Assembly (NCBI RefSeq): GCF_014203325.1
Contig: NZ_JACHIV010000001.1
Span: 5,395,501-5,459,500 of the forward strand
Source of the DNA: Saccharopolyspora gloriosae
GTDB lineage: Bacteria > Actinomycetota > Actinomycetes > Mycobacteriales > Pseudonocardiaceae
Direction of reading: 5' to 3'
DNA length: 64,000 nt
The translations under genes and the position numbers were made by a program. Shown here in pieces: positions 995 through 48,899 of the stretch; the first letter of the stretch is position 1; each line of letters starts with the position of its first letter. Below the pieces are notes generated by a model, which was not told the origin of the DNA, searched no databases, and saw nothing but the letters and a program-made list of their open reading frames with translations.

Positions 995-1048
995 TGCGAG
1001 GAAGGGAACCTTTCTGCCACTGGTGGCAGAAAGGTTCCCTTCCTCGCA
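995..1048. repeat. 29-bp repeat family, head-to-head pair
   Basis: Perfect inverted repeat with 26-bp arms around a 2-nt centre. Each arm is one unit, and within each unit AGGAAGG is separated by GAA from a CCTTTCT complement. It lies between the stop of the serine hydrolase gene and the start of aroG, both on the minus strand, so it could act as a terminator or belong to the upstream region of aroG. Confidence 0.9.
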
Positions 1049-1061
1049 TCGAACAACGGGG

Positions 1062-2420
1062 TCAGGGGGTGGGGGTCCAGGGGGTTGCGCCGCCGGGGAT
1101 GGGGGCGTTCGGGTCGTACGGGGTTCGGGTGAAGATGAAGGTGTTCAGGTTCAGGTGGGTCGCGGTTCCGTCGGAGGAACGGCCCACGTGGAGTCGCTCG
1201 CCCGAGTAGTAGCCGTCCAGGCCGGTCCAGGTGCCGTCCTCGTTCCGGCGGAAACGAGATGCTCGGCCGCGCCCCTGCCACGGCACCAGATCCAGCAGGC
1301 CGTCCGGAAGAATCCGCAGCACGTAAGGAGACGGCCCCCAGTACCACTGACCGGTGAGTTCGAGCAGATCAGGCTCGACCCGCGTGCTCGGAGCCCACGC
1401 CTCCGGAATCCGCGGTTCGTGCTCGTCGAGCAGGCCGAGCAAGTCCGTGATGAGCGCCGACGACACTCCCGCAGTCGTGTTGGCCATGAAGATGACACCG
1501 GTCCGATCCGCGGGATCGGCCATCACGGTCGCCAGGAAGCCGGGCATCGAGCCGGTGTGCCCGGCGAGGCGCCGCCCCTGGTTCCTGATCAGCTGAAATC
1601 CGAGTCCGTACCCGGCACGCCAGACGTCTCCGTCGTCCACCGCACCGGCAGCCCGCATCTCCGCGACCGTGTCCGGATGCAGCACCTCGGCCGTCTCACC
1701 GGCGATGAACCGCGCCCACCGCAGCATGTCGTCCAAGGTCGACCACAGCTGTCCCGCAGGGGCCATGGCCCCGCCGTCTTCCGCCGGCTCCGGCAACAAC
1801 ACGTCGGCCCACGGGTGGACCGCCCAGCCTTGCGCATGAGGACTTTCCGGGCCGAAGGTGGTCCGGTTCATGCCCAGCGGCAGGAGGATCTCCTCCCGCA
1901 CCGACTCGTACCAAGAGCGTCCCCGCAGCCGGGCGACGAGCTCCCCCAGAACCCCGAATCCGGTGTTGGAGTAGTGGAAGCCGTGCCGGGGGCTCGGGCG
2001 GACGGCGTCTTCGTCGACACCGGCGATCAGTTCTTCGACCGGGCCGCCTTCGGTGCGTTCCCACCACTGGCCCGCCGGTTCCGCGCTCATCCCGCTGGTG
2101 TGCGTCAGCAGGCGGGTGATGCTGCGGTCTCCGATGGCGGTACCTGGGACGTGCTGGTCCAGCCTGTCTTCGAGGTTGAGAAGGCCTTCGTCGCGCAGCC
2201 GCAGCACCAGGACCGCGATGAACGATTTGGTGATCGAGCCGATTCGGTACTGGGTGTTCGAGGTCGGGGCTTCACCCGACACGAGTCCTCTGCTGCCGGT
2301 CCAGAGCGTTTCCCCGTCGCGGACCAGCCCGGCTATCAGCGAGGGGACGCGGTTCTGGCTCTGCTCAACGGCCAGCCGTCTGAGCAGCGCGCGATCAGTG
2401 GAAGGCAGCAAGGTCGTCAT
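1062..2420 (-). CDS. Serine hydrolase of the beta-lactamase/D-alanyl-D-alanine carboxypeptidase (class C) family
   Basis: A 452-residue penicillin-binding-type serine hydrolase. The three active-site motifs are visible: SxxK as S62-I-T-K65, YxN as Y150-S-N152, and the KTG-equivalent HTG at H288-T-G290. The C-terminal region, about residues 330-452, resembles the lipocalin-like extension of many class C esterases. There is no signal peptide, so a cytoplasmic esterase, amidase or peptidase is as likely as resistance to a beta-lactam. The true substrate cannot be read from the sequence. It is a single gene, flanked on both sides by 29-bp repeat pairs. Confidence 0.85.
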   Translation of the reverse strand: MTTLLPSTDRALLRRLAVEQSQNRVPSLIAGLVRDGETLWTGSRGLVSGEAPTSNTQYRIGSITKSFIAVLVLRLRDEGLLNLEDRLDQHVPGTAIGDRSITRLLTHTSGMSAEPAGQWWERTEGGPVEELIAGVDEDAVRPSPRHGFHYSNTGFGVLGELVARLRGRSWYESVREEILLPLGMNRTTFGPESPHAQGWAVHPWADVLLPEPAEDGGAMAPAGQLWSTLDDMLRWARFIAGETAEVLHPDTVAEMRAAGAVDDGDVWRAGYGLGFQLIRNQGRRLAGHTGSMPGFLATVMADPADRTGVIFMANTTAGVSSALITDLLGLLDEHEPRIPEAWAPSTRVEPDLLELTGQWYWGPSPYVLRILPDGLLDLVPWQGRGRASRFRRNEDGTWTGLDGYYSGERLHVGRSSDGTATHLNLNTFIFTRTPYDPNAPIPGGATPWTPTP

Positions 2421-2445
2421 GGGCTCATGCTGTCACGCCTTTTCC

Positions 2446-2497
2446 GCGAGGAAGGGAACCTTCCTGTCACTGGTGACAGGAAGGTTCCCTTCCTCGC
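2446..2497. repeat. 29-bp repeat family, head-to-head pair in a divergent promoter region
   Basis: Perfect inverted repeat with two 25-bp arms and a TG centre. It sits between the start of the serine hydrolase (minus) and the start of the CPBP gene (plus). A terminator is not expected there, which argues that the family is not simply a transcription terminator. Confidence 0.9.
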
Positions 2498-2538
2498 CGG
2501 GTGGGCGGGAGGGGCGGGGGCGTTGGCAGGATGGGGGT

Positions 2539-3483
2539 GTGGGTGATCGAGTTGATGTTCGGGGTGTGGTGAGCTTCGTCGGGCTGAGCTACCTGGGTAC
2601 GTGGGTGCTGAGCATTCCGTTGTGGCTGACGGGCGCCGGTTTGACGTGGACGTGGGCGCCACTGCTGCTGGTGGTGATGATGTTCGTGCCCGCGGCGTCC
2701 GCGTTCGCGGTCACGAAGTGGATCAGCCCGCGGGACGCGCCGGTGCGCGACCTCGGCGTCACCAATGCCGGTGGCGTCCGGGAGTGGTGGGGCCGGGCGT
2801 TGATCTCGTGGTTCGGCCCACCGGTTCTGATGCTGGTCGCGCTGGGTCTCGGCGCGCTGCTCGGGGTTTATCACGCGGACTGGACCGGTTTCTCCGGCCT
2901 TTCGGAGCAGTTCGGTCTTGAGGCGGGCGGGGTGGGCGCGCCGTCGCTGTCGTCGTTGGCGCTGATGCAGCTCGTGCAGGTGATGCTGCTCGGCTGGTTG
3001 AACGTCATCCCTGCGTTCGGGGAGGAAGTCGGCTGGCGCGGTTACCTGACCACCGCTTTGCTGCCGTTGGGGCAGCCGGCCGCGTTCCTGGTGACGGGCG
3101 TCCTGTGGGGCCTGTGGCACGCTCCGCTGCTCGTCCTCGGATACAACTACCCCAATGCCCCGATCGTCGTCGCGTTCATCATGATGGTGTGCTTCTGCGC
3201 TCTGCTGAGCGCGCTGCTCGGGTGGTTGAGGTTGGCGACCGGCAGCGTGTGGCCCGCCGCGATCGGGCACGGTTTCGTCAACGCCGCGGCCGGTTTCGGC
3301 ATTCTGTTCAGCGCCGCGGGGCACCCGGTGGACAACGTCACGTCGGGCCTGCTCGGCTGGTCCGGATGGATCGTGCTGGCGCTGGCGATTCTGCTGCTGG
3401 TGCTGCTCGGCAAGCTCCCGGTGGTGCTGGTTCGGGAGGCGTCGGGATTGACGCGCGGAGTTCGCCGGCTCAGCCGCCGCTGA
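2539..3483 (+). CDS. CPBP-family intramembrane glutamic protease
   Basis: A polytopic membrane protein of 314 residues in the CPBP (CaaX protease/bacteriocin-processing, Abi) family. The conserved motifs are EExxxR at E162-E163-V-G-W-R167, followed by a membrane-embedded His in GLWHAPL (H194) and the third motif GHGFVN (H244). About eight hydrophobic segments are visible. The substrate is unknown; relatives include prenyl-protein endopeptidases and immunity-type proteins. The GTG at 2539 follows a G-rich purine run; further GTGs at about 2566-2569 are possible starts. A strong hairpin directly follows the stop codon. Confidence 0.83.
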   Translation: MGDRVDVRGVVSFVGLSYLGTWVLSIPLWLTGAGLTWTWAPLLLVVMMFVPAASAFAVTKWISPRDAPVRDLGVTNAGGVREWWGRALISWFGPPVLMLVALGLGALLGVYHADWTGFSGLSEQFGLEAGGVGAPSLSSLALMQLVQVMLLGWLNVIPAFGEEVGWRGYLTTALLPLGQPAAFLVTGVLWGLWHAPLLVLGYNYPNAPIVVAFIMMVCFCALLSALLGWLRLATGSVWPAAIGHGFVNAAAGFGILFSAAGHPVDNVTSGLLGWSGWIVLALAILLLVLLGKLPVVLVREASGLTRGVRRLSRR

Positions 3484-3532
3484 ACGCGAAGAGGGGCCGT
3501 CCGCAGCTCAGCGGACGGCCCCTCTTCGCGTT
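3483..3532. terminator. Bidirectional hairpin terminator between convergent genes
   Basis: A near-perfect 22-bp stem around a 6-nt loop (AGCTCA) begins at the CPBP stop codon and ends 10 bp before the stop of the convergent penicillin-binding-protein gene. It would serve both strands. Confidence 0.8.
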
Positions 3533-3541
3533 CGAGCTCGC

Positions 3542-6942: not shown

Positions 6943-7025
6943 GCGAGCAAGGGAACCTTTCTGTCACCGACGCGAGGAAGGGAACCTTTCTGTCACCGAC
7001 GCGAGCAAGGGAACCTTCCTGTCAC
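6943..7025. repeat. 29-bp repeat family, three direct copies
   Basis: Units start at 6943, 6972 and 7001, exactly 29 bp apart, with no spacer. They lie 28 bp after the stop of the next minus-strand gene (7054) and upstream of the membrane-protein gene. Confidence 0.9.
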
Positions 7026-11201: not shown

Positions 11202-11254
11202 GCGAGGAAGGGAACCTTTCTGTCACCGGTGACAGGAAAGCGACCTTCCTGTCA
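11202..11254. repeat. 29-bp repeat family, pair whose second half is degenerate and contains the fadB stop
   Basis: The left unit is canonical. The right unit has AGCGACC where GGTTCCC is usual. The TGA stop codon of fadB (11252-11254) lies in the last bases of the right unit. Confidence 0.8.
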
Positions 11255-13522: not shown

Positions 13523-13574
13523 GCGAGCAAGGGAACCTTTCTGTCACCGGTGACAGGATGGTTCCCTTCCTCGC
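13523..13574. repeat. 29-bp repeat pair inside the fadA-fadB intergenic gap
   Basis: Head-to-head pair around a CACCGGTG centre. It lies between two genes that would be expected to form one transcript, so the RNA would carry a long hairpin between fadA and fadB. Confidence 0.9.
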
Positions 13575-14906: not shown

Positions 14907-15040
14907 GCGAGGAAGGGAACTTTCCTGCCACCGGTGACAGAAAGGTTCCCTTCCTCGCAGCCGGAAGGGCGTGCAACGTGCGCCTCGGTGACCGGAAGGT
15001 TCCCTTCCTCGCCTCGGTGACAGAAAGGTTCCCTTGCTCA
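14907..15040. repeat. 29-bp repeat family, one pair plus two direct units overlapping the permease stop
   Basis: A head-to-head pair occupies 14907-14958. Two units in the reverse direction begin at about 14988 and 15017, 29 bp apart. The last one runs into the stop codon of the permease gene (15038-15040). Confidence 0.88.
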
Positions 15041-16627
15041 CATCACGGTCATCCAGGACAGGACCGGGGTCGCTTGCAGGGCGATGAGGGCGCACATCAG
15101 CAGGAGGAAGCCGAGGCTGAACGGGAGGACTCGACGGAAGAGGTCGCCCTCGCGCCCGGCCATGCCGACGGCTCCGGCGGCGATCGCCAGGTTCTGCGGC
15201 GAGATCATCTTGCCGAGCACCCCGCCCGAGCCGTTGGCGGCGGCGGCCAGCATCGGATCGATCCCCGCCTGTTCGGCCGCGGTGACCTGCAGCGCGCCGA
15301 ACAGCGAGTTGGACGAGGTGTCCGAGCCGGTGACGGCGACGCCCAGCCACCCGAGGATCGGCGAGAGGAAGGCGAACAACCCACCGGTGGCCGCCATCCA
15401 GGTGCCGAGCGTCGCGGTCTGTCCGGAGGTGTTCATGACGTAGGCGATGGCGAGCACGGTCATCACCGTCACGATCGCCCAGGCGAGCTGCCGGTAGGTC
15501 GCGGCGTAGCGGCCGAGGGCGGCGCGCGCGCTGATGCCGATCACGGGGATGGTGAGCAGTCCCGCGATCAGCAGCAGCGAGCCCGCTCCGGACAGCCAGT
15601 TGAACTTGAACTCGGTGAGCGAGAGCGCTTCACCGCCGGCATCGCGGATGTCGAGTCCGGGCCAGTTGAACTTGAGCGTGACGGCGTCGAGCAGGTCGGC
15701 GATCGGTCCCAGCTGGGCGACGACGAACACCGCGATGATGATCAGGTAGGGCGCGTAGGCGCGCAGCACCTCCGCTCGGCTGCCCGCGGGTTCGGAGGTG
15801 GGCGGTTCGGCGCCGCGCGGGGTCCACACCCGCATCAGCAGCACCGTCGCTCCCGCCGCCAGGAGCGCGGCGATGATGTCGGTCAGCGGGACGGAGACGT
15901 AGTTGGACGCCGCGAACTGGGCGACGGCGAAGGTGATCCCGCAGGTGAGGGTCGCCGGCAGGGTCTCCCGGACGCCGCGCACGCCGTCGATGATGCCGAC
16001 GAGGACCATCGGCACGAACAGCGCGAGCAGCGGGGTCTGCCTCCCGGTCATGGCGCCGAGGTCGGCCAGCGGCAGCTCGGTGACGCTCGCCAGCGTCACC
16101 AGCGGCGAAGCGAGAGCTCCGTAGGCGACGGGCGCGGTGTTGGCGACCAACGCGACGACGGCCGACGTCATCGGGCTGATGCCGAGCGCCAGCAGCATCA
16201 CCGTGGTGATCGCGACCGGTGTGCCGAAGCCGGCGAGGGCTTCGAGCAGCGCGCCGAAGCAGAACGCGATGATCATGGCTTGGATCCGGCGGTCGCCGCT
16301 GATCCTGGAGAAGCTGCGTTGCAGCACGTCGAAATGCCCGGTCGTAACGGTCATCTGGTAGATCCAGATGGCGTTGATGACGATCCACAGGATCGGGAAG
16401 AAGCCGAACGCCGCCCCGAGCGTCGCCGACAGCAGCGCCTGGTCCACGGGCATCGGGTAGACGAACATCGCGATCGCGAGCGCGACGGCCAGCGCGATGA
16501 GCGAGGCCTTCCACGCCGTCATGCGCACGAGGCCCAGCAGGGCGAACAGCACGAGCAACGGCAGTGCCGCCGCTACCGCGCTCCAGCCGAGCGAACCGAA
16601 CAACGGGGCCAGGATCTGTTGGTACAC
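15038..16627 (-). CDS. lctP: L-lactate/glycolate permease (LctP family)
   Basis: A 529-residue polytopic transporter of the LctP/GlcA family that imports lactate or glycolate with protons. About 13 hydrophobic segments are visible. Family stretches include [32 protein letters not shown] and, near the C-terminus, [14 protein letters not shown] and [16 protein letters not shown]. The GTG at 16627 has AAAGGAG 5 nt upstream. It follows glcD-glcE-glcF on the same strand after a 328-bp gap with repeat units, which points to uptake of the substrate oxidised by those genes. Lactate versus glycolate specificity cannot be told. Confidence 0.88.
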
Positions 16628-16825: not shown

Positions 16826-16950
16826 GCGAGGAAGGGAACCTTCCTGTCACCAGTGCGAGCAAGGGAACCTTTCTGTCACCGATGCATAAGAGGGACCCTC
16901 GCTCGGCCGGGGCTCATCGGACTCGGCGAGGAAGGGAACCTTCCTGTCAC
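16826..16950. repeat. 29-bp repeat family, two direct units plus one single unit
   Basis: Units begin at 16826 and 16855 (29 bp apart) and at 16926. They lie in the gap between glcF and lctP; the third ends 5 bp before the glcF stop. The 45 bp between the second and third units contain no recognisable unit. Confidence 0.85.
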
Positions 16951-27157: not shown

Positions 27158-27351
27158 GCGAGGAAGGGAACCTTTCTGTCACCGGCGTGAGCACGGGAAC
27201 CTTTCTGCCACGGTCGACCGCGGCGGCTCACGCGCCGAAGCGAGCAAGGGAACCTTTCTGCCACCAGTGCGAGCAAGGGGACTTTTCTGTCACCGGTTCG
27301 AACAAGGGAACCTTTCTGTCACCGGCGCGAGGAAGGGAACCTTCCTGTCAC
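27158..27351. repeat. 29-bp repeat family, six direct units
   Basis: Units begin at 27158 and 27187, then after a 24-bp interruption at 27240, 27269, 27298 and 27327. Within each run the spacing is exactly 29 bp even though the units have diverged (GCACGGG and AACAAGG variants). Confidence 0.88.
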
Positions 27352-29342: not shown

Positions 29343-29545
29343 GCGAGCAAGGGAACCCTCCTGTCACCGGTGCGAGCAAGGGAACCTTCCTGTCACCGGT
29401 GCGAGCAAGGGAACCTTCCTGTCACCGGTGCGAGCAAGGGAACCTTCCTGTCACCGGTGCGAGCAAGGGAACCTTCCTGTCACCGGTGCGAGCAAGGGAA
29501 CCTTCCTGTCACCGGTGCGAGCAAGGGAACCTTCCTGTCATCGGT
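29343..29545. repeat. 29-bp repeat family, seven uninterrupted tandem copies
   Basis: Units start at 29343, 29372, 29401, 29430, 29459, 29488 and 29517. The middle five are identical; the first and last have one change each (CCCTCC and TCATCGG). There is no spacer, so it is not a CRISPR array. It begins 12 bp after the acyl-CoA-synthetase-like gene. The following 230 bp to the inhibitor gene hold no gene and presumably that gene's promoter. Confidence 0.95.
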
Positions 29546-32088: not shown

Positions 32089-32262
32089 GCGAGGAAGGGA
32101 ACCTTCCTGTCACCCGGTGCCGCCACGCTCCACCGACCCGGGCACGCGACGATCGGAATCGGCACCTCACCACACCGGCTCACCGCGACGAGCGCGGACG
32201 AGCAGACCGTGACAGGAAGGTTCCCTTCCTCACGTGGATGACAGGAAGGTTCCCTTGCTCGC
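32089..32262. repeat. 29-bp repeat family, one unit plus two reverse units
   Basis: A single unit starts at 32089, touching the end of the OhrR operator. Two reverse-direction units start at 32209 and 32238, 29 bp apart. The roughly 95 bp between them contain no gene. Confidence 0.85.
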
Positions 32263-34288: not shown

Positions 34289-34380
34289 CTGCGGCATATG
34301 CGGTTGTGGACGTGCCCAGCAACGATAAACGGGCACCCGTCGGTGTCAATGCCCCCTCGCTCCGGATCACACGGATCGAG

Positions 34381-34431
34381 AGAGGAAGGGAACCTTCCTG
34401 TCACCGGTGACAGGAAGGTTCCCTTCCTCGC
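34381..34431. repeat. 29-bp repeat family, head-to-head pair
   Basis: Nearly perfect pair around TCACCGGTGA, in the divergent region between the riboswitch promoter and the GH30 gene. Confidence 0.9.
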
Positions 34432-35970: not shown

Positions 35971-36028
35971 GGTGCGAGGAAGGGAACCTTCCTGTCACCG
36001 GTGACAGGAAGGTTCCCTTCCTCGCACC
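35971..36028. repeat. 29-bp repeat family, perfect 58-bp palindrome
   Basis: Two units face each other with no centre gap, giving 29-bp arms from GGTGCGAGG to CTGTCACC and back. It begins 10 bp after the GH30 stop. This copy defines the full unit length. Confidence 0.95.
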
Positions 36029-37315: not shown

Positions 37316-37360
37316 GGCAGCCCGCTCGACCGGCCTGGGGGTCACCGGGAGCGGGCTGCC
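37316..37360. terminator. Hairpin terminator after ald
   Basis: A 12-bp stem (GGCAGCCCGCTC with its complement) around a 21-nt loop, 88 bp beyond the ald stop. The remaining sequence to about 37600 shows no gene. Confidence 0.6.
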
Positions 37361-38052: not shown

Positions 38053-38166
38053 GATTTCCGCACTCCTCCTCACCGGCGCGAGCCGGTCAGGCAGGATGGG
38101 ACGGCCCCGCGCCGCAGCGTGATCGTCCGTGGTCGCCGTAGCGGACCCCGGCGGGGCCGAGCGACG

Positions 38167-39198
38167 ATGGAGGAGCGTGTGCACGACGGCAGTGGCCGGA
38201 TCCTGGTGCAGAACCTGAGCAAGAACTTCGGGCCGGTCAGCGCGGTCCGCGATCTCAGCTTCGCCGTGCATCCCGGTGTGGTCACCGGGTTCCTCGGCCC
38301 GAACGGATCCGGCAAGACGACCACGTTGCGCATGGTGCTGGGACTGGTGAACCCGACGTCGGGAGCGGCCACCGTCAACGGCGTCCCCTTCCACCGGCTG
38401 CGCAACCCCGCCACGGTGGTGGGCGCGGTGCTGGAGGCGCAGAGCTTCCACCCGTCCCGCACCGCCCGCAACCACCTGCGCTGCTACTCGGCGGCGATGA
38501 ACGTGCCCGACCAGCAGGTCGACCACGCGCTGGACCTCGTCGGGCTGAGCAACGCCGCCGACCGCGGAGCCGGTGGGTTCTCGCTGGGCATGCGGCAGCG
38601 CCTGGCGCTGGCGACGGCGCTGCTCGGCGACCCGCAGGTGCTGATCCTCGACGAACCGGCCAACGGGCTCGACCCCGAAGGCATCGCGTGGCTGCGCGGC
38701 TTCCTCAAGTCCTTCGCAGCGTCCGGGCGCACCGTGCTGGTCTCCAGCCACCTGCTGCGCGAGATGGAGCACACCGTCGACCACGTGGTGATCGTCAGCC
38801 GCGGCCAGTGCGTCTACAACGGCGACCTCGACCAGTTGCGCGCGCAGCAGCGCTCCCGGGTGCTCGTGCAGGCCGGTGACCCCACCGCCCTGGTGAACGG
38901 GTTGCAGGCCGCGGGGCTCGCGGTGGAGCTCGTGCCGGACGGCCGGATCGCCGTGACCGGATCCGACTCGCGGTCGGTCGCCGAGCTGGCCTTGCAGGCC
39001 GGGGTCGCGGTCTACGGCATGCAGGAGGAGCAGGTCGACTTGGAGCGGCTGTTCTTCCAGCTCACCAGCGGCCAGTACGTCGGCGGCCGGTTCCCGCCCT
39101 CGGGTGGGCCGCAGCCTCCCGGCCCTGGCGGTTGGGGGCCTCCCGGTGGCGGGGCCAACCCGTACGAGCAGCACGGCGGATTCGGAGGTGGAGCCTGA
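38167..39198 (+). CDS. ABC transporter ATP-binding protein
   Basis: A 343-residue ATPase of the drug/bacitracin exporter (CcmA/YxlF) type. Motifs: Walker A GPNGSGKTTT, signature FSLGMRQRLALA, Walker B VLILDEPANGLDP, followed by the switch His in SSHLL. The last 40 residues are a Gly/Pro-rich tail. ATG at 38167 is used; a GTG at 38179 is equally plausible because the first codons contain GGAGGAG. The permease gene overlaps its stop (TGATG), forming a two-component exporter. Substrate unknown. Confidence 0.9.
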   Translation: MEERVHDGSGRILVQNLSKNFGPVSAVRDLSFAVHPGVVTGFLGPNGSGKTTTLRMVLGLVNPTSGAATVNGVPFHRLRNPATVVGAVLEAQSFHPSRTARNHLRCYSAAMNVPDQQVDHALDLVGLSNAADRGAGGFSLGMRQRLALATALLGDPQVLILDEPANGLDPEGIAWLRGFLKSFAASGRTVLVSSHLLREMEHTVDHVVIVSRGQCVYNGDLDQLRAQQRSRVLVQAGDPTALVNGLQAAGLAVELVPDGRIAVTGSDSRSVAELALQAGVAVYGMQEEQVDLERLFFQLTSGQYVGGRFPPSGGPQPPGPGGWGPPGGGANPYEQHGGFGGGA

Positions 39199-40046
39199 TG
39201 GACGGCCTGGTCAAATCCGAGTTCCGGAAGATCTTCACCACCAACCTGTGGTGGGCGCTGCTCATTCCGGTGGTCGTGCTCAGCTTCGGCGCGAGCTGGC
39301 TGGGCAGCGGTTTCGGCGCCATCTCGTCGATCGAGCAGGAACTCGGGCGGCCGTTGCCGCTGGGCCTGCTGACGATGTCGATGTCGACGAACTTCAGCAC
39401 GATCTTCGCGGGCCTGATGGGTGCGCTGGCGTTCGCCGGCGAGTACCGGAACAAGAGCATCACCACGACGTACCTCACCGGCAATCCGCGCGGCGCGGTC
39501 CTCGGCGCGAAGCTGATCACCTACACGAACCTCGGGCTGCTCTACGGGCTGGCCAACGTGCTGTTCGCGAGCCTCGGGGCCTTGGCGGGCGCCGGGCTCG
39601 ACGGTTTCGGCGAGGGCGCCGACTGGCTCATCGTGTGCGCGGCCGGGTTGCTGGCGATGGTGCTGTGGACACTGCTCGGCGTCGGCTTCGGCGCCGTCGT
39701 GGCCAATCCGGTCATCGTGATCATCGTGCTGCTGGTCTACAAGTTCGTGTTCGAGTTCGTCGTGGACCTGTTCCTGATCGGCTCCGACGCCTCGAGCGTC
39801 AGCTCGTACCTGCCGGGCGCGGCGGGCAGCGGGATCGTCGGCAACCTCGCCGTGCCGATCTTCATCAGCGCGACCGCCGGCGCCAACGAGCAGTACGTGC
39901 CGCAGGAGTTGTTCGAGCTGCTGCACTTCGTGTTCGGCGGGTCCTACGGGCACCCGTGGTGGCTGAGCCTGCTGACCTTCGCCGGGTACGCGGCGGTGTT
40001 CATCCTCGGCGGCTGGTACTTCAGCAAGCGCCGCGACATCACCTAA
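39198..40046 (+). CDS. ABC transporter permease (ABC-2 type)
   Basis: A 282-residue membrane protein with six hydrophobic segments (about 17-35, 65-85, 105-130, 145-180, 190-215, 255-275). It has an N-terminal SEFRKIFTTNLWWAL typical of ABC-2 permeases partnered with CcmA-like ATPases. The ATG overlaps the stop of the ATPase gene, indicating coupling. The charged C-terminus (SKRRDIT) is cytosolic. Natural role unknown; relatives export peptides or antibiotics or serve in self-protection. Confidence 0.88.
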   Translation: MDGLVKSEFRKIFTTNLWWALLIPVVVLSFGASWLGSGFGAISSIEQELGRPLPLGLLTMSMSTNFSTIFAGLMGALAFAGEYRNKSITTTYLTGNPRGAVLGAKLITYTNLGLLYGLANVLFASLGALAGAGLDGFGEGADWLIVCAAGLLAMVLWTLLGVGFGAVVANPVIVIIVLLVYKFVFEFVVDLFLIGSDASSVSSYLPGAAGSGIVGNLAVPIFISATAGANEQYVPQELFELLHFVFGGSYGHPWWLSLLTFAGYAAVFILGGWYFSKRRDIT

Positions 40047-40069
40047 GGCGCCTCGCAGCGCCCGCAGCG

Positions 40070-40291
40070 GAAGGGGACCTTCCTGCCACCGGTGGCAGGA
40101 AGGTCCCCTTCTTCGCGTTCGGGGCCGTGGAGCCGCGCCGCTCGCGCTCGATGACAGGAAGGTTCCCTTCCTCGCACCCGTGACAGAAAGGTTCCCTTCC
40201 TCGCACCCGTGACAGAAAGGTTCCCTTCCTCGCACCCGTGACAGAAAGGTTCCCTTCCTCGCACCCGTGACAGGAAGGTTCCCTTCCTCGC
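40070..40291. repeat. 29-bp repeat family, variant palindrome plus five reverse tandem units
   Basis: 40070-40111 is a perfect 42-bp palindrome in which GGGAACC is replaced by GGGGACC on both arms, a compensated change. Five reverse units then start at 40151, 40180, 40209, 40238 and 40267, each exactly 29 bp apart. Confidence 0.93.
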
Positions 40292-40360
40292 TCGGTCGGG
40301 CGGGGTGGTGCACGTCGCTGATCGGCTCGGAGCGTCGGGGGTGGGACCTAATCTGGATCG

Positions 40361-43300
40361 GTGAGCGACTCCGACAGCGAATGTTCCCGGCCCGGTTGGA
40401 TCCGCCGCTTGGCCGCCGCCTGCTGGCGGCATCCGATCGCCGTGCTGCTGGCGTTGGGCGCGTCGGTGGCGGCGGTGGGGTTGGAGGCGCTGGTCCCGCT
40501 GATCACGAAGACGGCGGTGGACGACGCGCTGGGAGGCGACACGAGCCGCCTGTGGTGGCTGGCCGCGGCGTTGGCGGGGCTGGGGGTGTTCCGGTTCGGC
40601 GCTGCGTTCGTGCGCCGCTACTCGGCGGGCCGGTTGGCGCTGGACGTGCAGCACGACCTGCGGCGCGCGGTGTTCGGTTCGGTGCAGCGGCTCGACGGCG
40701 GCAAGCAGGACGCGCTGCGCACCGGCCAGGTGGCGTCGCGTGCGATCAGCGATCTGCAGCTGGTGAACGCGTTGCTGTCGATGGTGCCGCTGGCGGCGGG
40801 CACGGTGGTGCTGATGGTGTTCGCGCTGGCCGCGATGCTGTGGCTGTCGCCGATGTTGACGTTGGTCATCCTGGTGGTGGTGCCGCTGATCGGGATGGTG
40901 TCGGCGCGCAGCAAGAAGCGGTTGTTCCCGGCGACGTGGTCGGCTCAGCAGCGGGCGGCGGACATCGCGCAGCAGGTCGAGGAGACGGTGGCCGGGGTCC
41001 GGGTGGTGAAGGGCTTCGGGCAGGAGGCCCGTGAGGTCTCCCGGCTGGAGTCGGGTGCTCGCCGGTTGTTCGCGGAGCGGCTGCGCACGGCTCGGATGAC
41101 CTCGTTCCCGCAGGCGAGCTTGTCGGTGCTGCCCGCGGCGGGGCAGGTCGGGGTGCTGGGGCTCGGCGGCTGGATGGCGATGCAGGGCCAGGTCGGCTTG
41201 GGCACGTTCGTGGCGTTCGCCGCGTACGTGGCGATGCTGGGCGGCCCGGCTCGGATGATGGCGAGCGTGCTGGTGCAGGGCCAGTTGACCCGCGCGGGCA
41301 TGGAGCGGATCACGGATCTGATCGATTCGCGTCCGGACGTGCGCGACCGGCCGGGTGCGGTGGACCTGCCGGAGGCTCCGCTGCGGGTGCGGCTGGACGG
41401 GGCGGGGTTCGGCTACACGCGCGACCAGCAGGTGCTGCGGGACGTGTCGTTGCGGGTGGAGCCGGGCGAGACGGTGGCGCTGGTGGGTCCGGCGGGTTCG
41501 GGCAAGTCGACGGTGTCGTTGCTGCTGCCGCGCTTCTACGACGTGCAGCAGGGTTCGGTGCGGATCGGGCCCGCCGACGCCGAGCCGGATCACGACGTGC
41601 GCGATGTGCGGCTGGAGTCGCTGCGCTCGGCGGTGGGGGTGGTGTTCGAGGAGGCGTTCCTGTTCTCGGACACGATCCGCGGCAACATCGCCTACGGGCG
41701 GCCGGACGCGTCGGAGGCGGAGGTGGTCGCGGCGGCGCGGGCGGCGGAGGCGCACGGCTTCATCTCGGCGTTGCCCGACGGGTACGAGACGGCGGTCGGC
41801 GAGCGCGGTTTGACGTTGTCCGGCGGGCAGCGGCAGCGGGTGGCGTTGGCGCGGGCGTTGCTGTCGGATCCGCGGATCCTGGTGCTCGACGATGCGACGT
41901 CGGCGGTGGATCCGGCCACGGAGGCCGCCATCCACGACACGTTGCGGTCGGTGACGGCGCAGCGCACGACGTTGTTGATCGCGCACCGCCGTTCGACGCT
42001 GGCGTTGGCGGACCGGATCGCGGTGCTCGACGCGGGCCGGGTCGTCGACGTGGGCACGCAGGACGAGCTGGAGCGGCGGTGCGGGTTGTTCCGCTCGTTG
42101 CTGGCGGGGCCGGGCGAGTCGATCGACACGGCGAGCGCGGGCGAACCGGACGCGGCCGAGTCCGCGCCGACTCCGGCGTGGTGGCCGGAGGACGTGCCGG
42201 AACGGGAACCGCAGGCGGTGGTGACGCCGGGCGGCGTGCGCGGCACGCGCGGGGACGGCGGGGGCACCGCCACTCCGCTGACCCCGGAGCTGGCGGCGGG
42301 CCTGCGCCGGTTGCCCGCGGCCGGGGACGCGCCCCGGTTGCCGGGGGTGGATGCGACGGCACCCGATCCGGGGTTCCGGCTGGCCCGGTTGCTGCGGCCG
42401 ATCCGCTGGGGGCTGGCGCTGACGGTGCTGCTGGTGGCGGCGGACGCGCTGGGCTCGGTCGCGTTGCCCTCGCTGGTGCGCCACGGCGTGGACGGCGGTG
42501 TCGACGCGGGCCACGCCGGGACGTTGTGGCTGGTCACGGCGATCGCCGGGGTGATCGTGCTGGTCAGCTGGCTGGTGATCAAGGTGCAGACGGTGGTGAC
42601 GGCCCGCACGGGTGAGACGTTGCTGTACTTGCTGCGGGTGCGCAGCTACGCGCACCTGCAGCGGCTCGGGCTGGACTACTACGAGCGCGAGCTCGCGGGC
42701 CGGATCATGACGCGGATGACCACCGACGTGGACGCGTTGTCCTCGTTCTTGCAGACGGGCCTGGCCACGGCGGTGGTGAGCCTGTTCACGATCGTCGGCA
42801 TCGCGGTCGCGCTGCTGGTCACGGACCTGTCGCTGGCACTGGTGGCGTTGTCGGTGCTGCCGCCGCTGATCGTCGCCACGGTGATCTTCCGCCGGGTGTC
42901 GTCGACCGCGTACGCGGAGGCCCGCGAACGGGTCAGCACGGTGAACGCGGACCTGCAGGAGAACGTGTCGGGGCTGCGGGTGGCGCAGGCGCACCGCCGC
43001 GAGCGGTACTCGGCGAAGTTGTTCGCGCAGCGCAGCGACGCGTACCGGCGGTCGCGGCTGCGCGCGCAGCGCTACATCGCCACGTACTTCCCGTTCACGG
43101 CGCTGCTCTCGGAGCTGGCGCAGGCGGTGGTGCTGGGCGTGGGCGCGACGCGGGTGGCGGCCGGTGAGATGTCGGCCGGGGTGCTGGTGGCGTTCTTGCT
43201 GTACCTGGGCATGTTCTTCTCCCCGGTGCAGCAGTTGTCGGGCGTGTTCGACGCCTACCAGCAGGCTCGGGTCGGGTTGCGCCGCATCGGTGACCTGCTG

Positions 43301-44146
43301 CGCACTCCCACGTCGGTGCCGCAGGCGGCGGAGCCGGTGGTGGTGCCGGACCGGTTCGCCGGTGAGGTCGAGCTGCGTTCGGTGTCGTTCCGCTATCCGG
43401 GCACCGAGCGGCCCGCGTTGCGCGACGTGTCGTTGAAGGTCGATCCGGGCACCACGGTGGCGCTGGTGGGGCCGACGGGTGCGGGCAAGTCGACGCTGGT
43501 GAAGCTGCTGGCCCGGTTCTACGACGCCACCGGCGGCGCGGTGCTGGTCGACGGGGTGGACGTGCGGGACTACGAGCTCACCGGCTACCACCACCGCTTG
43601 GCGGTGGTGCCGCAGGAGGGTTACCTGTTCGCCGGGGATGTCGCGTCGAACATCTCCTACGGCAGGCCGTCGGCGACGGACGCCGACGTGGAGCGGGCGG
43701 CGCGCGACGTGGGCGCCCTGCCGGGCATCGCGATGTTGCACCGCGGTTTCCGCCAGCAGGTCGGTGAGCGCGGGCGGGAGCTCTCGGCGGGTCAGCGCCA
43801 GCTGGTGGCGCTGGCTCGCGCGGAGCTGGTCCGGCCGGATCTGCTGCTGCTGGACGAGGCGACGGCGGCGCTGGATCCGGCCACGGAGTCACTGGTGGTC
43901 TCGGCGAGTGACCGGGCGGCTTCCCGGCGGACCACGTTCGTGGTGGCGCACCGGCTGGGCACGGCGGCCCGGGCGGACCGGATCGTCGTGATCGACGGCG
44001 GCCGGATCGTGGAGGACGGCACGCATTCGGAGCTGATCGGGCTCGACGGCCACTACGCGCGGCTGTGGCGGGCTGGTGATCACTACACCGAGGAGGACGT
44101 GGTGGGTGGTGACGCAGCGCACGATCCGGTCCACACCTCCCCCTGA
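40361..44146 (+). CDS. Fused full-length ABC exporter (TMD-NBD-TMD-NBD)
   Basis: 1261 residues, two exporter halves in one chain, as in mycobacterial Rv0194. Half 1: six membrane segments (about 20-310), Walker A at G376 (GPAGSGKST), signature LSGGQRQ, Walker B ending D510-D511. Half 2: membrane segments (about 670-950), Walker A at G1037 (GPTGAGKST), signature LSAGQRQ, Walker B D1165-E1166. Half 1 has Asp where the catalytic Glu should be, and half 2 has a non-canonical signature, so one composite ATP site is degenerate. GTG at 40361. It is probably a multidrug or lipid exporter; no neighbouring regulator is evident. Confidence 0.93.
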   Translation: MSDSDSECSRPGWIRRLAAACWRHPIAVLLALGASVAAVGLEALVPLITKTAVDDALGGDTSRLWWLAAALAGLGVFRFGAAFVRRYSAGRLALDVQHDLRRAVFGSVQRLDGGKQDALRTGQVASRAISDLQLVNALLSMVPLAAGTVVLMVFALAAMLWLSPMLTLVILVVVPLIGMVSARSKKRLFPATWSAQQRAADIAQQVEETVAGVRVVKGFGQEAREVSRLESGARRLFAERLRTARMTSFPQASLSVLPAAGQVGVLGLGGWMAMQGQVGLGTFVAFAAYVAMLGGPARMMASVLVQGQLTRAGMERITDLIDSRPDVRDRPGAVDLPEAPLRVRLDGAGFGYTRDQQVLRDVSLRVEPGETVALVGPAGSGKSTVSLLLPRFYDVQQGSVRIGPADAEPDHDVRDVRLESLRSAVGVVFEEAFLFSDTIRGNIAYGRPDASEAEVVAAARAAEAHGFISALPDGYETAVGERGLTLSGGQRQRVALARALLSDPRILVLDDATSAVDPATEAAIHDTLRSVTAQRTTLLIAHRRSTLALADRIAVLDAGRVVDVGTQDELERRCGLFRSLLAGPGESIDTASAGEPDAAESAPTPAWWPEDVPEREPQAVVTPGGVRGTRGDGGGTATPLTPELAAGLRRLPAAGDAPRLPGVDATAPDPGFRLARLLRPIRWGLALTVLLVAADALGSVALPSLVRHGVDGGVDAGHAGTLWLVTAIAGVIVLVSWLVIKVQTVVTARTGETLLYLLRVRSYAHLQRLGLDYYERELAGRIMTRMTTDVDALSSFLQTGLATAVVSLFTIVGIAVALLVTDLSLALVALSVLPPLIVATVIFRRVSSTAYAEARERVSTVNADLQENVSGLRVAQAHRRERYSAKLFAQRSDAYRRSRLRAQRYIATYFPFTALLSELAQAVVLGVGATRVAAGEMSAGVLVAFLLYLGMFFSPVQQLSGVFDAYQQARVGLRRIGDLLRTPTSVPQAAEPVVVPDRFAGEVELRSVSFRYPGTERPALRDVSLKVDPGTTVALVGPTGAGKSTLVKLLARFYDATGGAVLVDGVDVRDYELTGYHHRLAVVPQEGYLFAGDVASNISYGRPSATDADVERAARDVGALPGIAMLHRGFRQQVGERGRELSAGQRQLVALARAELVRPDLLLLDEATAALDPATESLVVSASDRAASRRTTFVVAHRLGTAARADRIVVIDGGRIVEDGTHSELIGLDGHYARLWRAGDHYTEEDVVGGDAAHDPVHTSP

Positions 44147-44512
44147 TCGGCACCTCACCGAACAGGTCATTGCGGACACGCGGTGTCACCGGTTCCCGAC
44201 CTGCGGACTCGGCCGTCCCGCAAGGCGGGAACACGGCTTGTCACCGAAACGTTGTAGTGCTCGTGCGCGACAGACAGGCCGGAGAGCCACCGGGCACACC
44301 GGTGGGCAGTCGGCGCATAGTACGGGGTACCGGTGATCGTCAACGACACCCGAACGGGTCAGGTTTGCCTGGTGGGGAACCTTCCTGATCGATCCTGTGA
44401 CCGAGCTCCTCACCACCAGGTCCGCACTGTGTGCCAATCGCACTAATCGGACCGCTAGCCTGGTACTTGAGTGTGTACATCACGAGCAGATGGATCGAGG
44501 CGAACGCCAGCC
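44147..44512. other. Intergenic region upstream of kgd
   Basis: About 365 bp with no convincing gene and no 29-bp repeat. It must contain the kgd promoter; I could not choose a -35/-10 pair with confidence. Confidence 0.4.
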
Positions 44513-47500
44513 GTGTCCAGCAGCAGCCCTGCGTCACAGTTCGGCCCCAACGAGTGGTTGATCGAGGAGATGTACGAGCAGTACCTCCAAGATCCCGCGT
44601 CGGTGGACTCCGCGTGGCACGAGTTCTTCGCCGACTACAAGCCGGGGCAGGCGACCTCGGTTTCGGTAGCCGCTGACAACTCCGCAGCCGCGTCCGGAGC
44701 CGGGTCGACCGCGACGACGACGGTGTCGGGAACTACGACTGCGACGGCCACGCGCAGCGAGGGCAACGGGCAGGCTCGCCCGGCCGCCGCCGCGCAGGCC
44801 GCGCCGAAGCCGGCCAAGGCGGCCGAGCCGAAGCCCTCCCCGCAGCAGGCCGCGAAGGCCGCTCCGGTGAAGAGCTCGGGCACCGGCGAGGAGGCTAAGC
44901 CGCTGCGCGGCGCGTCCGCGGCGATCGCCAAGAACATGGAGCAGTCGCTGACGGTGCCGACCGCCACGAGCGTGCGCGCGGTGCCGGCGAAGCTGCTGTT
45001 CGACAACCGCATCGTGATCAACAATCACCTGAAGCGGAACAAGGGCGGCAAGGTCTCGTTCACCCACCTCATCGGCTACGCGCTGGTGCGGGCGATGCGG
45101 GACTTCCCGAACATGAACCGCCACTACGGGGAGGACGCCAAGGGCAAGCCCGCGGCGATCACCCCGGAGCACGTGAACCTCGGTCTCGCGATCGACCAGC
45201 CCGGCAAGGACGGGTCGCGCAACCTCGTCGTGGCCTCCATCAAGGGCTGCGAAGAGATGACCTTCCAGCAGTTCTGGCAGGCCTACGAGGAGATCATCCG
45301 CAAGGCCCGCACCGGTGGGCTGACCGCGGACGACTTCTCCGGCACCACGTTCTCGCTGACCAACCCGGGCCCGTCGGGCACGAACCACTCGGTGCCGCGG
45401 CTGACCAAGGGCCAGTCCGCGATCATCGGCGTCGGGGCGATGGACTACCCGGCGGAGTTCCAGGGCGCCTCCGAGCGGGCCCTGGTCGAGATGGGCATCA
45501 GCAAGATCGTCACGCTGACCTCCACCTACGACCACCGGGTCATCCAGGGCGCGGAGTCCGGCGACTTCCTGCGCAAGGTGCACCAGCTGCTGCTGGGCGA
45601 GGACGGGTTCTTCGACGACATCTTCTCGTCGCTGCGCATCCCGTACGAGCCGATCCGCTGGACCCAGGACATCCCGGAAGGCGCCGTCGACAAGACCGCG
45701 CGCGTCCTGGAGCTGATCGACGCCTACCGCACCCGCGGTCACCTGATGGCCGACATCGACCCGCTGAACTACCGGCAGCGCAGGCACGAGGACCTCGACG
45801 TCCTCTCGCACAGCCTCACGCTGTGGGACCTGGACCGGGAGTTCGCCGTCGGCGGCTTCGCGGGCAAGGAGCGCATGACGCTGCGCGACGTGCTCGGCGT
45901 GCTGCGCGACTCGTACTGCCGCACCGTCGGCGTCGAGTACATGCACATCCTCGAACCCGACGAGCGCGACTGGCTGCAGAACCGGGTCGAGAAGCCGCAC
46001 GAGAAGCCGGAGCAGTCCGAGCAGAAGTACATCCTCTCGAAGCTCAACGCCGCCGAGGCGTTCGAGACGTTCCTGCAGACCAAGTACGTCGGGCAGAAGC
46101 GCTTCTCGCTGGAGGGCGCCGAGACGGTCGTGCCGCTGCTGGACGCGGTGCTCGACTCGTCGGCCGCGGCCGACCTCGACGAGGTCGTCATCGGCATGCC
46201 GCACCGCGGTCGCCTCAACGTGCTGGCCAACATCGTCGGCAAGCCGATCTCGCAGATCTTCCGCGAGTTCGAGGGCAACCTGGACCCGGGCCAGGCGCAC
46301 GGGTCCGGTGACGTCAAGTACCACTTGGGCGCGGAGGGCAAGTACTTCCGCATGTTCGGCGACGGCGAGACCAAGGTGTCGCTGACCTCGAACCCCTCCC
46401 ACCTGGAGGCCGTGGACCCGGTGCTGGAAGGCATCGTCCGCGCCAAGCAGGACATCCTGGACAAGGGCCAGGAAGGCTTCACGGTGCTGCCGGTGCTGAT
46501 GCACGGCGACGCCGCGTTCGCCGGGCAGGGCGTGGTCGCCGAGACGCTGAACCTGTCGCTGCTGCGCGGTTACCGCACCGGCGGCACCGTGCACGTGATC
46601 GTGAACAACCAGGTCGGCTACACCACCGCCCCGGAGCACTCGCGGTCGAGCAAGTACTCCACCGACGTGGCGAAGATGATCGGTTCGCCGGTCTTCCACG
46701 TCAACGGCGACGACCCCGAGGCGTGCGTCTGGGTCGCGAAGCTGGCCGTGGAGTACCGCCAGCGGTTCGGCAAGGACGTCGTGATCGACATGGTGTGCTA
46801 CCGCCGCCGCGGGCACAACGAGGGCGACGACCCGTCGATGACGCAGCCCGCGATGTACGACGCCATCGACAAGATGCGCAGCGTCCGCAAGACCTACACC
46901 GAGTCCCTGATCGGCCGCGGTGACATCACCGTCGAAGAGGCCGAGAAGGCGCTCAAGGACTACGCCAGCCAGCTCGAGCACGTCTTCAACGAGGTCCGCG
47001 AGCTGGAGAAGCACCCGCCGGAGCCGAGCCCGTCGGTGGAGTCCGAGCAGGTCGTGCCGACGAAGCTGATCACCGCGATCTCCCCGGAGACGCTGGAGCA
47101 CATCGCCGACGCGCACGTGAACCTGCCCGAGGGCTTCACCCCGCACTCGCGGGTCAAGCCGGTGCTGGAACGCCGCGCGAAGATGGCCCGCGAAGGCGAG
47201 ATCGACTGGGGCTTCGGCGAACTGCTCGCGTTCGGCTCGCTCGCCATGGAAGGCCGACCGGTGCGGCTGACCGGGCAGGACAGCCGGCGCGGCACGTTCG
47301 GCCAGCGGCACTCCGTGCTCATCGACCGCAAGACCGGGTCGGAGTACACCCCGCTGCTGAACCTCGCCGAGGACCAGGCGAAGTTCCTCGCCTACGACTC
47401 GGCGCTGTCCGAGTTCGCCGCGATGGGCTTCGAGTACGGCTACTCCGTCGCCAACCCCGACGCCCTCGTGGCGTGGGAGGCGCAGTTCGGCGACTTCTTC

Positions 47501-48229
47501 AACGGCGCCCAGTCGATCATCGACGAGTTCATCTCGTCCGGTGAGGCCAAGTGGGGCCAGCGCTCCGACGTGGTGCTGCTGCTGCCGCACGGCCACGAGG
47601 GCCAGGGCCCGGACCACAGCTCGGCGCGCATCGAGCGTTGGCTGCAGCTGTGCGCCGAGGGCTCCATGACGGTGGCGCTGCCGTCGACCCCGGCGAACCA
47701 CTTCCACCTGCTGCGCAGGCACTCGCTCGACGGCATCCACCGTCCGCTGATCGTCTTCACACCGAAGTCGATGCTGCGGATGAAGGCCGCGACGAGCTCG
47801 GTCGCCGACTTCACCGAGGGCAAGTTCACCTCGGTCATCGACGACCCGTCGCAGCCGGACCCGTCGGCGGTGCGCCGGATCGTGTTCTGCTCCGGCAAGC
47901 TCTACTACGAGCTGGCCGCCGAGAAGGAGAAGCAGGGCCACACCGACACGGCCGTGGTGCGGCTGGAGCAGCTGTACCCGCTGCCGCACCGCAAGCTCGG
48001 CGCGGTGCTGGAGCGCTACCCCAACGCCACCGACGTCCGGTGGGCGCAGGAGGAGCCGGCGAACCAGGGTCCGTGGCCGTTCCTCGGCCTGGCGCTGCCG
48101 GAGCTGTTCCCAGAGCGGCTGCAGGGCCTCAAGCGCGTGTCGCGGCGCCCGATGGCCGCCCCGGCCACCGGCCTGAAGGCCGTCCACGACGTCGAGCAGG
48201 CCGAGGTCGTGCAGAACGCCTTCAACTGA
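44513..48229 (+). CDS. kgd: Multifunctional 2-oxoglutarate metabolism enzyme (fused E2 acyltransferase and E1 decarboxylase)
   Basis: 1238 residues. The N-terminal [19 protein letters not shown] segment is typical of Kgd/OdhA. An Ala/Pro/Lys-rich linker follows (about 45-140), then an E2-type acyltransferase domain with the active His341 in TYDHRVIQG. The E1 part has the thiamine-diphosphate region [10 protein letters not shown] (about 665) and [12 protein letters not shown]. There is no lipoyl domain, as in other actinobacteria, so E1/E2 must work with another lipoylated partner. It acts at the 2-oxoglutarate to succinyl-CoA step and in carboligation. The GTG at 44513 matches the known N-terminus of the mycobacterial protein. 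A clear terminator follows. Confidence 0.96.
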
Positions 48230-48243
48230 TCTCGTCGTAGATC

Positions 48244-48279
48244 GCGGGCCGTCGGTTCCTCCGGGAACCGGCGGCCCGC
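48244..48279 (+). terminator. Hairpin terminator after kgd
   Basis: A 16-bp stem with one bulge-like mismatch around a TCCG tetraloop, followed by TTTC, 14 bp after the kgd stop. Confidence 0.8.
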
Positions 48280-48300
48280 TTTCGCGTTCAGGGGTGGTGG

Positions 48301-48349
48301 GAGGAAGGGAACCTTCCTGTCATCGGTGACAGTAAAGTTCCCTTGCTGT
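48301..48349. repeat. 29-bp repeat family, degenerate pair
   Basis: Left unit canonical; right unit carries GTAAAG and GCTGTC changes. It lies between kgd and the DUF6104 gene. Confidence 0.8.
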
Positions 48350-48397
48350 CAGGGTCCGGCGGCGTGGGCCGTCGGCGAACGCATGGAGGAGGAAGCG

Positions 48398-48574
48398 GTG
48401 TACTTCACCGACCGTGGCATCGAAGAGCTCGAGGAGCGTCGCGGTGATGACGAGGTGACCTTGGCTTGGCTCGCCGACCGGATGCGGGTCTTCGTCGACC
48501 TCAACCCGGCTTTCGAGGACGCCACGGAGCGCCTCGCGACCTTCCTGGCCCGCGACGACACCGACGAGGACTGA
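48398..48574 (+). CDS. Small DUF6104-type protein
   Basis: A 58-residue acidic protein beginning YFTDRGIEELEERRG and continuing VTLAWLADRMRVFVDLNP. I recognise this as the DUF6104 family, typically encoded right after the 2-oxoglutarate dehydrogenase gene in streptomycetes. The GTG at 48398 is chosen because GGAGGAGG ends 5 nt upstream; an in-frame ATG at 48383 contains that ribosome-binding site. Its conserved position after kgd suggests a related role, but no function is known to me. Confidence 0.82.
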   Translation: MYFTDRGIEELEERRGDDEVTLAWLADRMRVFVDLNPAFEDATERLATFLARDDTDED

Positions 48575-48620
48575 CCACTCCCCCGCCGCACCGACCCCAG
48601 CGACTCCCTCGATCCTCGAT

Positions 48621-48899
48621 GCGAGGAAGGGAACCTTCCTGTCACGGGTGGCAGAAAGGTTCCCTTCCTCGCCTCCGCGCGACGGCGAGACACCGTGCGG
48701 GTTTTCCGAGGAGGCGATCTTCTCTCCCCGGTGACAGGAAGGTTCCCTTCGCCGCAGCATGACAGAAAGGCGACCTTCCTCGCGCCGGTGACAGAAAGGT
48801 TCCCTTCCTCGCCTCCGTGACAGAAAGGTTCCCTTCCTCGCCTCCGTGACAGGAAGGTTCCCTTCCTCGCCTCCGTGACAGGAAGGTTCCCTTCCTCGC
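48621..48899. repeat. 29-bp repeat family, one pair plus six reverse tandem units
   Basis: A pair occupies 48621-48672. Reverse units start at 48731, 48759, 48788, 48817, 48846 and 48875; spacing is 29 bp except the first step (28). The second unit has the same AGGCGACC variant as the degenerate half at 11.2 kb. No further unit is seen to the right in the window. Confidence 0.92.

Follow-up and report, generated by a model that had tools for sequence, protein, structure and literature searches.

Phased palindromic repeats confined to one interior chromosome region of actinobacteria as candidate sites of a domain-marking protein

A family of short palindromic repeats occupies intergenic gaps of a single interior region of the chromosome in the genome, G000, from which we analysed a stretch of 64,000 nucleotides (the window; positions 5,395,501-5,459,500 of the 6,825,909-bp single contig NZ_JACHIV010000001.1). 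The same gene block carries the family in genomes of three genera, Saccharopolyspora among them, with few stray copies elsewhere, and within the window's genus the units outlast their flanks and are inherited in place. Such near-exclusive placement in one stretch, the same across genera, suggests that a DNA-binding protein marks or organises this stretch. We tentatively favour the reading that the units are putative binding sites of a dimeric protein marking a domain, analogous to the matS sites of MatP in E. coli and not a member of that system. No description of the repeat, as a terminator family or otherwise, was found in the literature searched, among the matches listed and mostly outside subscription journals; the excerpts of PMC3610266, on transcription in S. 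erythraea, do not mention it.

Repeat unit and its confinement to one region

We scored the window with the 25-bp unit GCGAGGAAGGGAACCTTCCTGTCAC, allowing up to 6 mismatches, and found 55 units in 15 intergenic gaps between positions 996 and 48899, the gaps being those of our own simple gene caller. An earlier sequence-only reading had likewise counted about 55 copies, and its 17 loci would result from a finer splitting of the arrays. A candidate 56th unit at 28885 has 7 mismatches, lies inside a called gene and was excluded. For the core pattern AGGAAGG-N3-CCTTCCT, allowing up to 3 mismatches, we counted 62 matches in the window; 100 shuffles gave 1.34 on average and 5 at most. The dyad core described by that reading is real, but its full symmetry and look-alike orientations are not, since the centre GAA, the left flank GCG and the right flank GTCAC give the consensus GCGAGGAAGGGAACCTTCCTGTCAC an orientation. 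Units stand between co-directional (11 gaps), convergent (2) and divergent (2) genes, as first noticed. A 29-position profile at more than 18 bits finds 96 units in 34 clusters in the 304 kb of G000 that were fetched, where coding sequence makes up 79% by our gene caller, and none of the 96 unit midpoints falls within a called gene, in agreement with the claim that the units never lie inside one. At the gathering score of Rfam no family in the window falls on the repeat units, two glycine riboswitch aptamers being the sole matches.

All 91 genome-wide matches of a 22-base pattern (up to 3 mismatches) in G000 fall in 5,292,630-5,472,744, an interval of 180 kb or 2.6% of the chromosome, and the same pattern read backwards has no match in G000. 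A shorter, looser pattern has 46 exact matches, every one inside this interval; with 1-2 mismatches it is also matched elsewhere, and its control gives 90. This confinement is a property beyond what the window alone shows, and the whole-genome check proposed with the sequence-only reading thus finds the unit at no background frequency elsewhere. The distance from dnaA to the block is about 1.0-1.2 Mb in G000; in seven other carriers it is about 0.8-1.4 Mb, some genome lengths being rounded. G018 and the Saccharopolyspora genomes carry the block on the other side of dnaA than G000 does. With dnaA so far off in G000 and the block on opposite sides of it in different genera, a marker of the origin or terminus was rejected.

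We found no other region-bound family of 12-mers (at least 7 loci) in the 1.74 Mb of G000 sampled as 63 stretches, an incomplete survey that covers 20 kb per 79 kb up to 4.68 Mb and then 4.80-4.92, 5.2155-5.5195 and 5.80-5.92 Mb only. For contrast, the survey returned one dispersed family (79 loci) and one patchy family (20 loci).

Carriers among relatives

Relatives were searched with a primary-sequence model built from the 55 window units; searches of more than 40 genomes used stricter filters, by which weak matches are lost. The family was found in 6 of 60 genomes, G000 included. In the taxonomic family, 27 of 390 genomes are positive, namely four of the six of the window's genus, one genome of g14 (G018), 21 genomes of g26 and one of g16 with a single weak match; in the order, 9 of 397 are positive, eight being known carriers and the ninth a single weak match in another family. 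The g26 genomes (e.g. G030, G389, G397, G387, G381) are Saccharopolyspora. An exact 25-mer occurs in 32 stretches of genome_contigs (84,980 species; the collection may omit records close to the window's genome), all titled Saccharopolyspora and from 13 species or strains; S. spinosa is among the species that carry the units. For three stretches from Saccharopolyspora sp. NFXS83 the match to G000 proteins is 93-100%. A plasmid or virus origin was rejected, there being three plasmid records at E 0.05-0.6 and no viral contig with the exact pattern.

Among the matches listed, which are part of 203, units lie in 1,087,412-1,209,223 in G003, in 3,836,455-4,001,972 in G018 and on contig C27 in G030. 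Among 150 of 277 matches listed, G389 (63 matches), G397 (56), G387 (59) and G381 (99) each have one interval of about 190-290 kb. The unit-bearing interval is the same gene block in G002, G003, G018 and G030, with 117, 113, 85 and 96 reciprocal best hits to the domain genes of G000 at mean identities of 92, 87, 73 and 75%, respectively. A neighbouring hut-type gene, located 2.5 kb from the first listed unit, is the sole anchor for G001. At least one best match in G000 5.2155-5.5195 Mb is found for 27 of the 32 named stretches; six of these also match elsewhere, and two (L194, L195) match only genes just left of the unit-bearing part. Four stretches (L182, L185, L188, L196) match elsewhere only and one, L180, has no match. 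This comparison used 1412 G000 proteins, i.e. the whole of that region plus a sample of the rest, and favours matches in the region.

The stray units are three on contig C5 of G030, a pair at 4711749 in G018 and four in the S. flava stretch L180, the one without a match to the 1412 proteins. The three of G030 (C5:19075-20470, L204) have the single Y1_Tnp match of their genome at a distance of about 1 kb; by reading, this gene is IS200-like.

Geometry, placement and pairing of the units

Neighbouring units keep a fixed phase. Over five genomes, 84 of the 86 '+ then -' neighbours at 22-34 bp have a unit offset of 27 (the two exceptions, both in G030, have 29 and 30), and 76 of the 95 same-orientation neighbours at 20-60 bp have an offset of 29. 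Only two '- then +' neighbours within 60 bp occur in the five genomes, both in G003, and opposite neighbours in the window are always '+ then -'. Measured from core start to core start, neighbouring dyads are 29 bp apart in tandem and head-to-head layouts alike, so the near-exact 29-bp phasing seen at first holds for both. The mirror symmetry of pairs stops at the unit edge, and positions beyond it match at about chance.

We counted placement in gaps of 60-1500 bp over the five genomes. The 159 gaps with units comprise 29 convergent, 108 co-directional and 22 divergent ones, and the 291 without units 34, 169 and 88, so that divergent gaps are depleted (odds ratio 0.37, p 9e-5). Units lie at a median distance of 31.5 nt behind stop codons and 123 nt before start codons.

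This placement could be that of operators of a transcription regulator whose regulon is clustered by chance, the dyad being operator-like and the sites adjoining many operons. We consider this very improbable, because the sites tend to lie behind genes and not before them and the flanking genes are functionally mixed, including rho and 2-oxoglutarate dehydrogenase (Pfam) and ATP synthase and threonine/lysine genes (protein-start reading).

Bidirectional terminators or stabilisers of RNA 3' ends, with the pair folding into a long hairpin behind stop codons, would fit the bias towards stop codons and the share of convergent gaps (29 with against 34 without units, compared with 22 against 88 for divergent ones), and the consensus pair folds at -48.5 kcal/mol. 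Such a function would be required throughout the genome, however, and 2.6% of the chromosome holds all 91 matches. Terminator-like T-run sites are not in excess, with three in window 26000-45000 against 5.9 expected, one of the three on a unit. The sequence-only reading had held that the units are not simple terminators; the divergent gaps that bear units (two in the window, 22 of 159 over five genomes) agree with it, but the units lie close behind stop codons, so a terminator-like role is possible.

Changes in the units themselves bear on pairing too. The hairpin with a GAA loop that had been proposed for the single unit is broken at one pair in 13 of the 47 distinct units of the window alignment, and no pair is changed on both sides; in the five-genome set, pairing within units hardly departs from the independent-column expectation. 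Between the two units of a pair (84 pairs; positions of the 29-mer numbered from 0), position 7 covaries, with 72 against 50.7 expected, and position 19 does so slightly (58 against 51.7), while positions 21 and 23 do not (64 against 64.6; 52 against 51.8). When position 7 is set aside, the units of a pair are still slightly more similar than expected in G000 and G003 (p 0.02 each) and not so in G002 (p 0.16) or G018 (p 0.20). The covariation at position 7 counts in favour of a terminator and, together with this weak excess, against sites of a protein; a long hairpin or template-switch repair could explain it. The covariation is patchy, and therefore pairing is not generally maintained, with a partial constraint on pairs being possible. 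Degeneracy at the same position of both half-sites (7 and 19) is also what a dimeric protein would be predicted to tolerate. Taken together, we regard terminators or 3'-end stabilisers as improbable. A DNA-binding site is the best reading because the 29-bp phase is common to both layouts, the symmetry ends at the unit edge and compensatory change is not general; of the DNA- or RNA-binding protein that had been suggested from the sequence, the RNA-binding part is unsupported by covariation.

Evolution of the sites

The sites hardly move within the window's genus. Comparable gaps with units in both genomes, in G000 only, in the other only and in neither number 30, 2, 1 and 43 for G002 and 25, 3, 0 and 34 for G003, i.e. 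30 of 33 and 25 of 28 repeat-bearing gaps are shared. Units are better conserved than their flanks in the same gaps, with identities of 88.3 against 77.6% (G002) and 84.4 against 68.8% (G003). Orthologous units in sites of equal layout are also more alike than shuffled ones, with 0.949 against 0.918 in G002 (17 sites) and 0.892 against 0.874 in G003 (13 sites, p 0.0035).

These data bear on the main rival, a non-autonomous repeat like the repetitive extragenic palindromic (REP) or REPIN sequences, copied over short chromosomal distances and now fixed, whose confinement would be a trace of local spread without function. Short extragenic palindromes, head-to-head doublets of fixed spacing and arrays resemble the REPIN/BIME architecture in the portions available of PMC3116915. 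The avoidance of divergent gaps, the stray units outside the block and the patchiness of a second palindromic family in G000 would also suit such a repeat. On the other hand, the near-fixed sites and the units outlasting their flanks weaken it, as does the lack of genome-wide dispersal. The search for a REP-associated transposase suggested by the sequence-only reading came out negative: Y1_Tnp (PF01797) has no match in six of the seven carriers tested (G000, G002, G003, G018, G389, G397), and the sole gene, that of G030, is of IS200 type by sequence reading despite its nearness to stray units. Mobilisation by a REP-associated tyrosine transposase (RAYT) was rejected on the absence of Y1_Tnp from the six carriers; matches occur in the non-carriers G005 (2 genes) and G017 (1), and G026 has none. 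We know of no mechanism that holds a REP within 3% of a genome. A selfish repeat of this kind is possible and, in our judgement, doubtful; if it were the case, confinement to about 3% of the genome across generic divergence would demand a local spreading mechanism.

Non-carriers, loss and descent

Two genomes of the window's genus (G004, G005) and G017 have no match to the repeat. The block itself is present in G005 and G017, with 106 and 86 domain orthologs, and there no comparable repeat family was found, nor any degraded copy above the lowest threshold in 75 (G005) and 45 (G017) orthologous gaps. In a tree of ten genomes, G005 branches at the base of the window's genus, and G017 stands next to G018 and G030 (support 0.60). 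Trees of 56 genes inside and 11 genes outside the block agree on the window's genus and disagree on G017, G018 and G030: G018 joins G030 in the former (0.88) and G017 joins G030 in the latter (0.92), a comparison that tests horizontal transfer of the whole block only in part.

We prefer an ancestral family lost at least twice, with independent gain being possible, because two places are shared between G000 and G018. The second unit of the pair at 48299..48350 equals the unit at the orthologous place in G018 in 28 of 29 bases, while the first does not stand out; and at the outlying place 5,472,692 of G000 units lie behind the orthologous gene in G018 too, in a different layout. Other units at shared places are not especially alike. 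Two neighbouring genes lie in the block in G018, G030, G005 and G017 and outside it in G000 (at 241-243 kb), without units there; the same two genes are adjoined by units in S. hirsuta, S. indica and S. soli. This is a single event, and the G000 copies may be paralogs.

Proposed role of the units

We propose that the units serve as double-stranded sites, with the dyad AGnAAGG-n3-CCTTnCT and the oriented flank GTCAC, for a sequence-specific and probably dimeric protein. The sites stand singly, in arrays of 29-bp phase or as exact head-to-head pairs in about 30 to 40 intergenic gaps of one domain. This domain spans about 120-290 kb at roughly 0.8-1.4 Mb from dnaA, and within it the sites prefer positions behind stop codons, where promoters might be least disturbed. 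The putative protein may bind neighbouring sites cooperatively, and the bound arrays might bridge the domain or otherwise distinguish it from the rest of the chromosome, as MatP does on matS at the E. coli terminus. The data show the sites, their confinement, synteny and phasing, their inheritance within the genus, a conservation above that of the flanks and the lack of a general pairing constraint, and the two neighbouring genes that lie outside the block in G000 without units also count in favour; binding by a protein, its dimeric and cooperative nature and the bridging or marking of the domain are inferred.

Several observations weigh against this proposal. The bias towards stop codons is equally expected of tolerated repeats, the domain lies on a single chromosome arm, and the spacing of sites is uneven. 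Unit-free gaps are nearly as conserved as the units (84.4% for G002, 78.5% for G003). Site sharing across genera is weak, with counts, in the order given above, of 6, 2, 5 and 17 for G018 (p 0.03) and 7, 6, 6 and 21 for G030 (p 0.07), and in G018 (2 sites, p 0.52) and G030 (1 site) the likeness of orthologous units does not exceed that of shuffled ones. The number of copies at a site varies. Tandem neighbours show hardly more similarity than shuffled units (p 0.05, 0.36, 0.09), and genome-specific variants occur, e.g. a change from T to G at unit position 21 that about 40 of 100 G003 units share; the variants imply some concerted or parallel change, and because of both a family-wide homogenisation is possible. 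Moreover, G004, G005 and G017 live without the family. The fetched regions yielded no binding protein: none of the block genes there is shared by G018 and G030 while missing from G005 as well as G017. A single gene with that carrier pattern lies just outside the edge and encodes 371 aa without a Pfam match.

The interpretation first offered from the sequence is thus partly supported, the DNA-binding part still being the best reading and the REP-like part being weakened. We speculate, in a wider claim that is rather unlikely as a whole, that Saccharopolyspora-type actinobacteria possess an undescribed chromosome-organising system, in which a putative protein on phased palindromic arrays marks an interior domain that lies on one arm, some 1 Mb away from the origin; the position in the domain, not the neighbouring genes, would set the persistence of sites, and loss could proceed without recognisable remnants. 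A review of 2011 named MatP, SeqA and SlmA as the first macrodomain-specific binders and expected more (PMC3116907, in part). Since the sites are known and one genus holds both carriers and natural non-carriers, the protein should be obtainable with the site as bait, as was done for MatP according to the same part of that review.

Other features of the region

The unit clusters of the window are listed in Table 1 with the landmark gene at the right edge of the domain. On the G000 chromosome the edges of the arrays are at 5.29 and 5.44 Mb.

Table 1. Clusters of repeat units in the window and the edge landmark (positions of the window; a dot stands for no single strand)
Feature	Position	Strand	Remark
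Head-to-head pair (+-)	996..1047	.	gap between two minus-strand genes
Head-to-head pair (+-)	2446..2497	.	divergent gap
Three tandem units, 29-bp period	6943..7025	+	
Head-to-head pair (+-)	11202..11253	.	convergent gap
Head-to-head pair (+-)	13523..13574	.	
Four units (+---)	14907..15041	.	
Three units (+++)	16826..16950	+	
Six units (++++++)	27158..27351	+	
Seven tandem units, 29-bp period	29343..29541	+	
Three units (+--)	32089..32262	.	
Head-to-head pair (+-)	34380..34431	.	divergent gap
Head-to-head pair (+-)	35974..36025	.	
Seven units (+------)	40065..40291	.	
2-oxoglutarate dehydrogenase gene	44513..48229	+	Pfam; landmark at right edge of domain
Head-to-head pair (+-)	48299..48350	.	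behind 2-oxoglutarate dehydrogenase gene
Eight units (+-------)	48621..48899	.	convergent gap; final units before the domain's main edge, two more 28 kb beyond

Among the genes of the domain, one at window 21272-21796 encodes a DNA-binding protein of the YbaB/EbfC type, with orthologs in the G002 and G003 regions and none in the regions of G005, G018, G030 and G017. The riboswitch matches form a tandem glycine riboswitch (RF00504, two aptamers) at window 34103-34290 on the minus strand, before the gene of the glycine cleavage H-protein, and a repeat pair lies just upstream. Two tandem genes on the minus strand at window 57248-58121 encode small proteins that resemble each other, each of 74 aa, within 252-nt direct repeats of 92% identity. 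By protein-start reading, G000:C1 5,361,608-5,376,820 (L039, L040) is an integrated element beside tRNA-Arg(CCG) with an integrase-like first gene; none of its called genes has a counterpart in the region of G002, and it contains no repeat units.

Two further repeat families were noticed. The second palindromic family, GTGAACGGACCGTTCG, has 368 matches in G000 and 162 in G005 with at most 1 mismatch; it is patchy, e.g. at 0.69-0.92 Mb, and lies at G000:C1 5,837,669-5,892,630 and elsewhere and at G005:C1 420-467 kb and elsewhere. Its core GGTCCGTTCAC has no occurrence in 5.2155-5.5195 Mb of G000. The members of a third family are about 80 bp long and combine a stem-like core with a terminal CTGAGGTTCCGC on one side; this family has 79 dispersed loci in the sampled genome, e.g. 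at G000:C1 5,805,231-5,864,828.

Comparison with known systems

Intrinsic terminators share with the units their palindromes and their place behind stop codons. They differ in that the units show no T-run excess (26000-45000), no general pairing constraint and confinement to one region; compensatory changes in the stem are lacking within units and, in pairs, are seen at position 7 and not at 21 and 23.

REP, BIME and REPIN sequences with their RAYT are likewise short extragenic palindromes, often in inverted doublets and arrays (PMC3116915 and PMC3733652, in the portions available). The consensus of our family, on inspection, has no terminal GTAG or CGTC tag of the sort given in that portion of PMC3733652. 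The units are also confined to one domain instead of being dispersed through extragenic space, their sites are stable within the genus, and a cognate Y1 transposase is missing from the carriers tested, the G030 gene being IS200-like.

The sites of Noc, SlmA and parS cover much of the chromosome or the origin region. Our repeat, in contrast, is limited to one interior block, while the likeness is that all of these are sequence-specific sites of chromosome-management proteins (SlmA is also treated in the part seen of PMC3116907).

A fourth comparison is with matS and MatP. The 13-bp matS motif, with 23 copies in the Ter region of E. coli, was found in silico and its protein was then identified by binding assays, as the available part of PMC3116907 reports. 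The exact matS pattern GTGACRNYGTCAC has no match in the window, and the GTGAC/GTCAC in the flanks of the repeat unit is a resemblance only. Our repeat differs further in its 17-bp core, in its arrays and pairs and in its place about 1 Mb from dnaA on one arm, which is not the terminus as judged by the dnaA distance (0.8-1.4 Mb in eight carriers, the terminus itself being unmapped). In both systems short sites are repeated only in one chromosomal domain and are conserved among relatives; for our repeat this domain holds 91 of 91 matches in 180 kb, and the same block carries the sites in the relatives, with few strays in G018 and G030.

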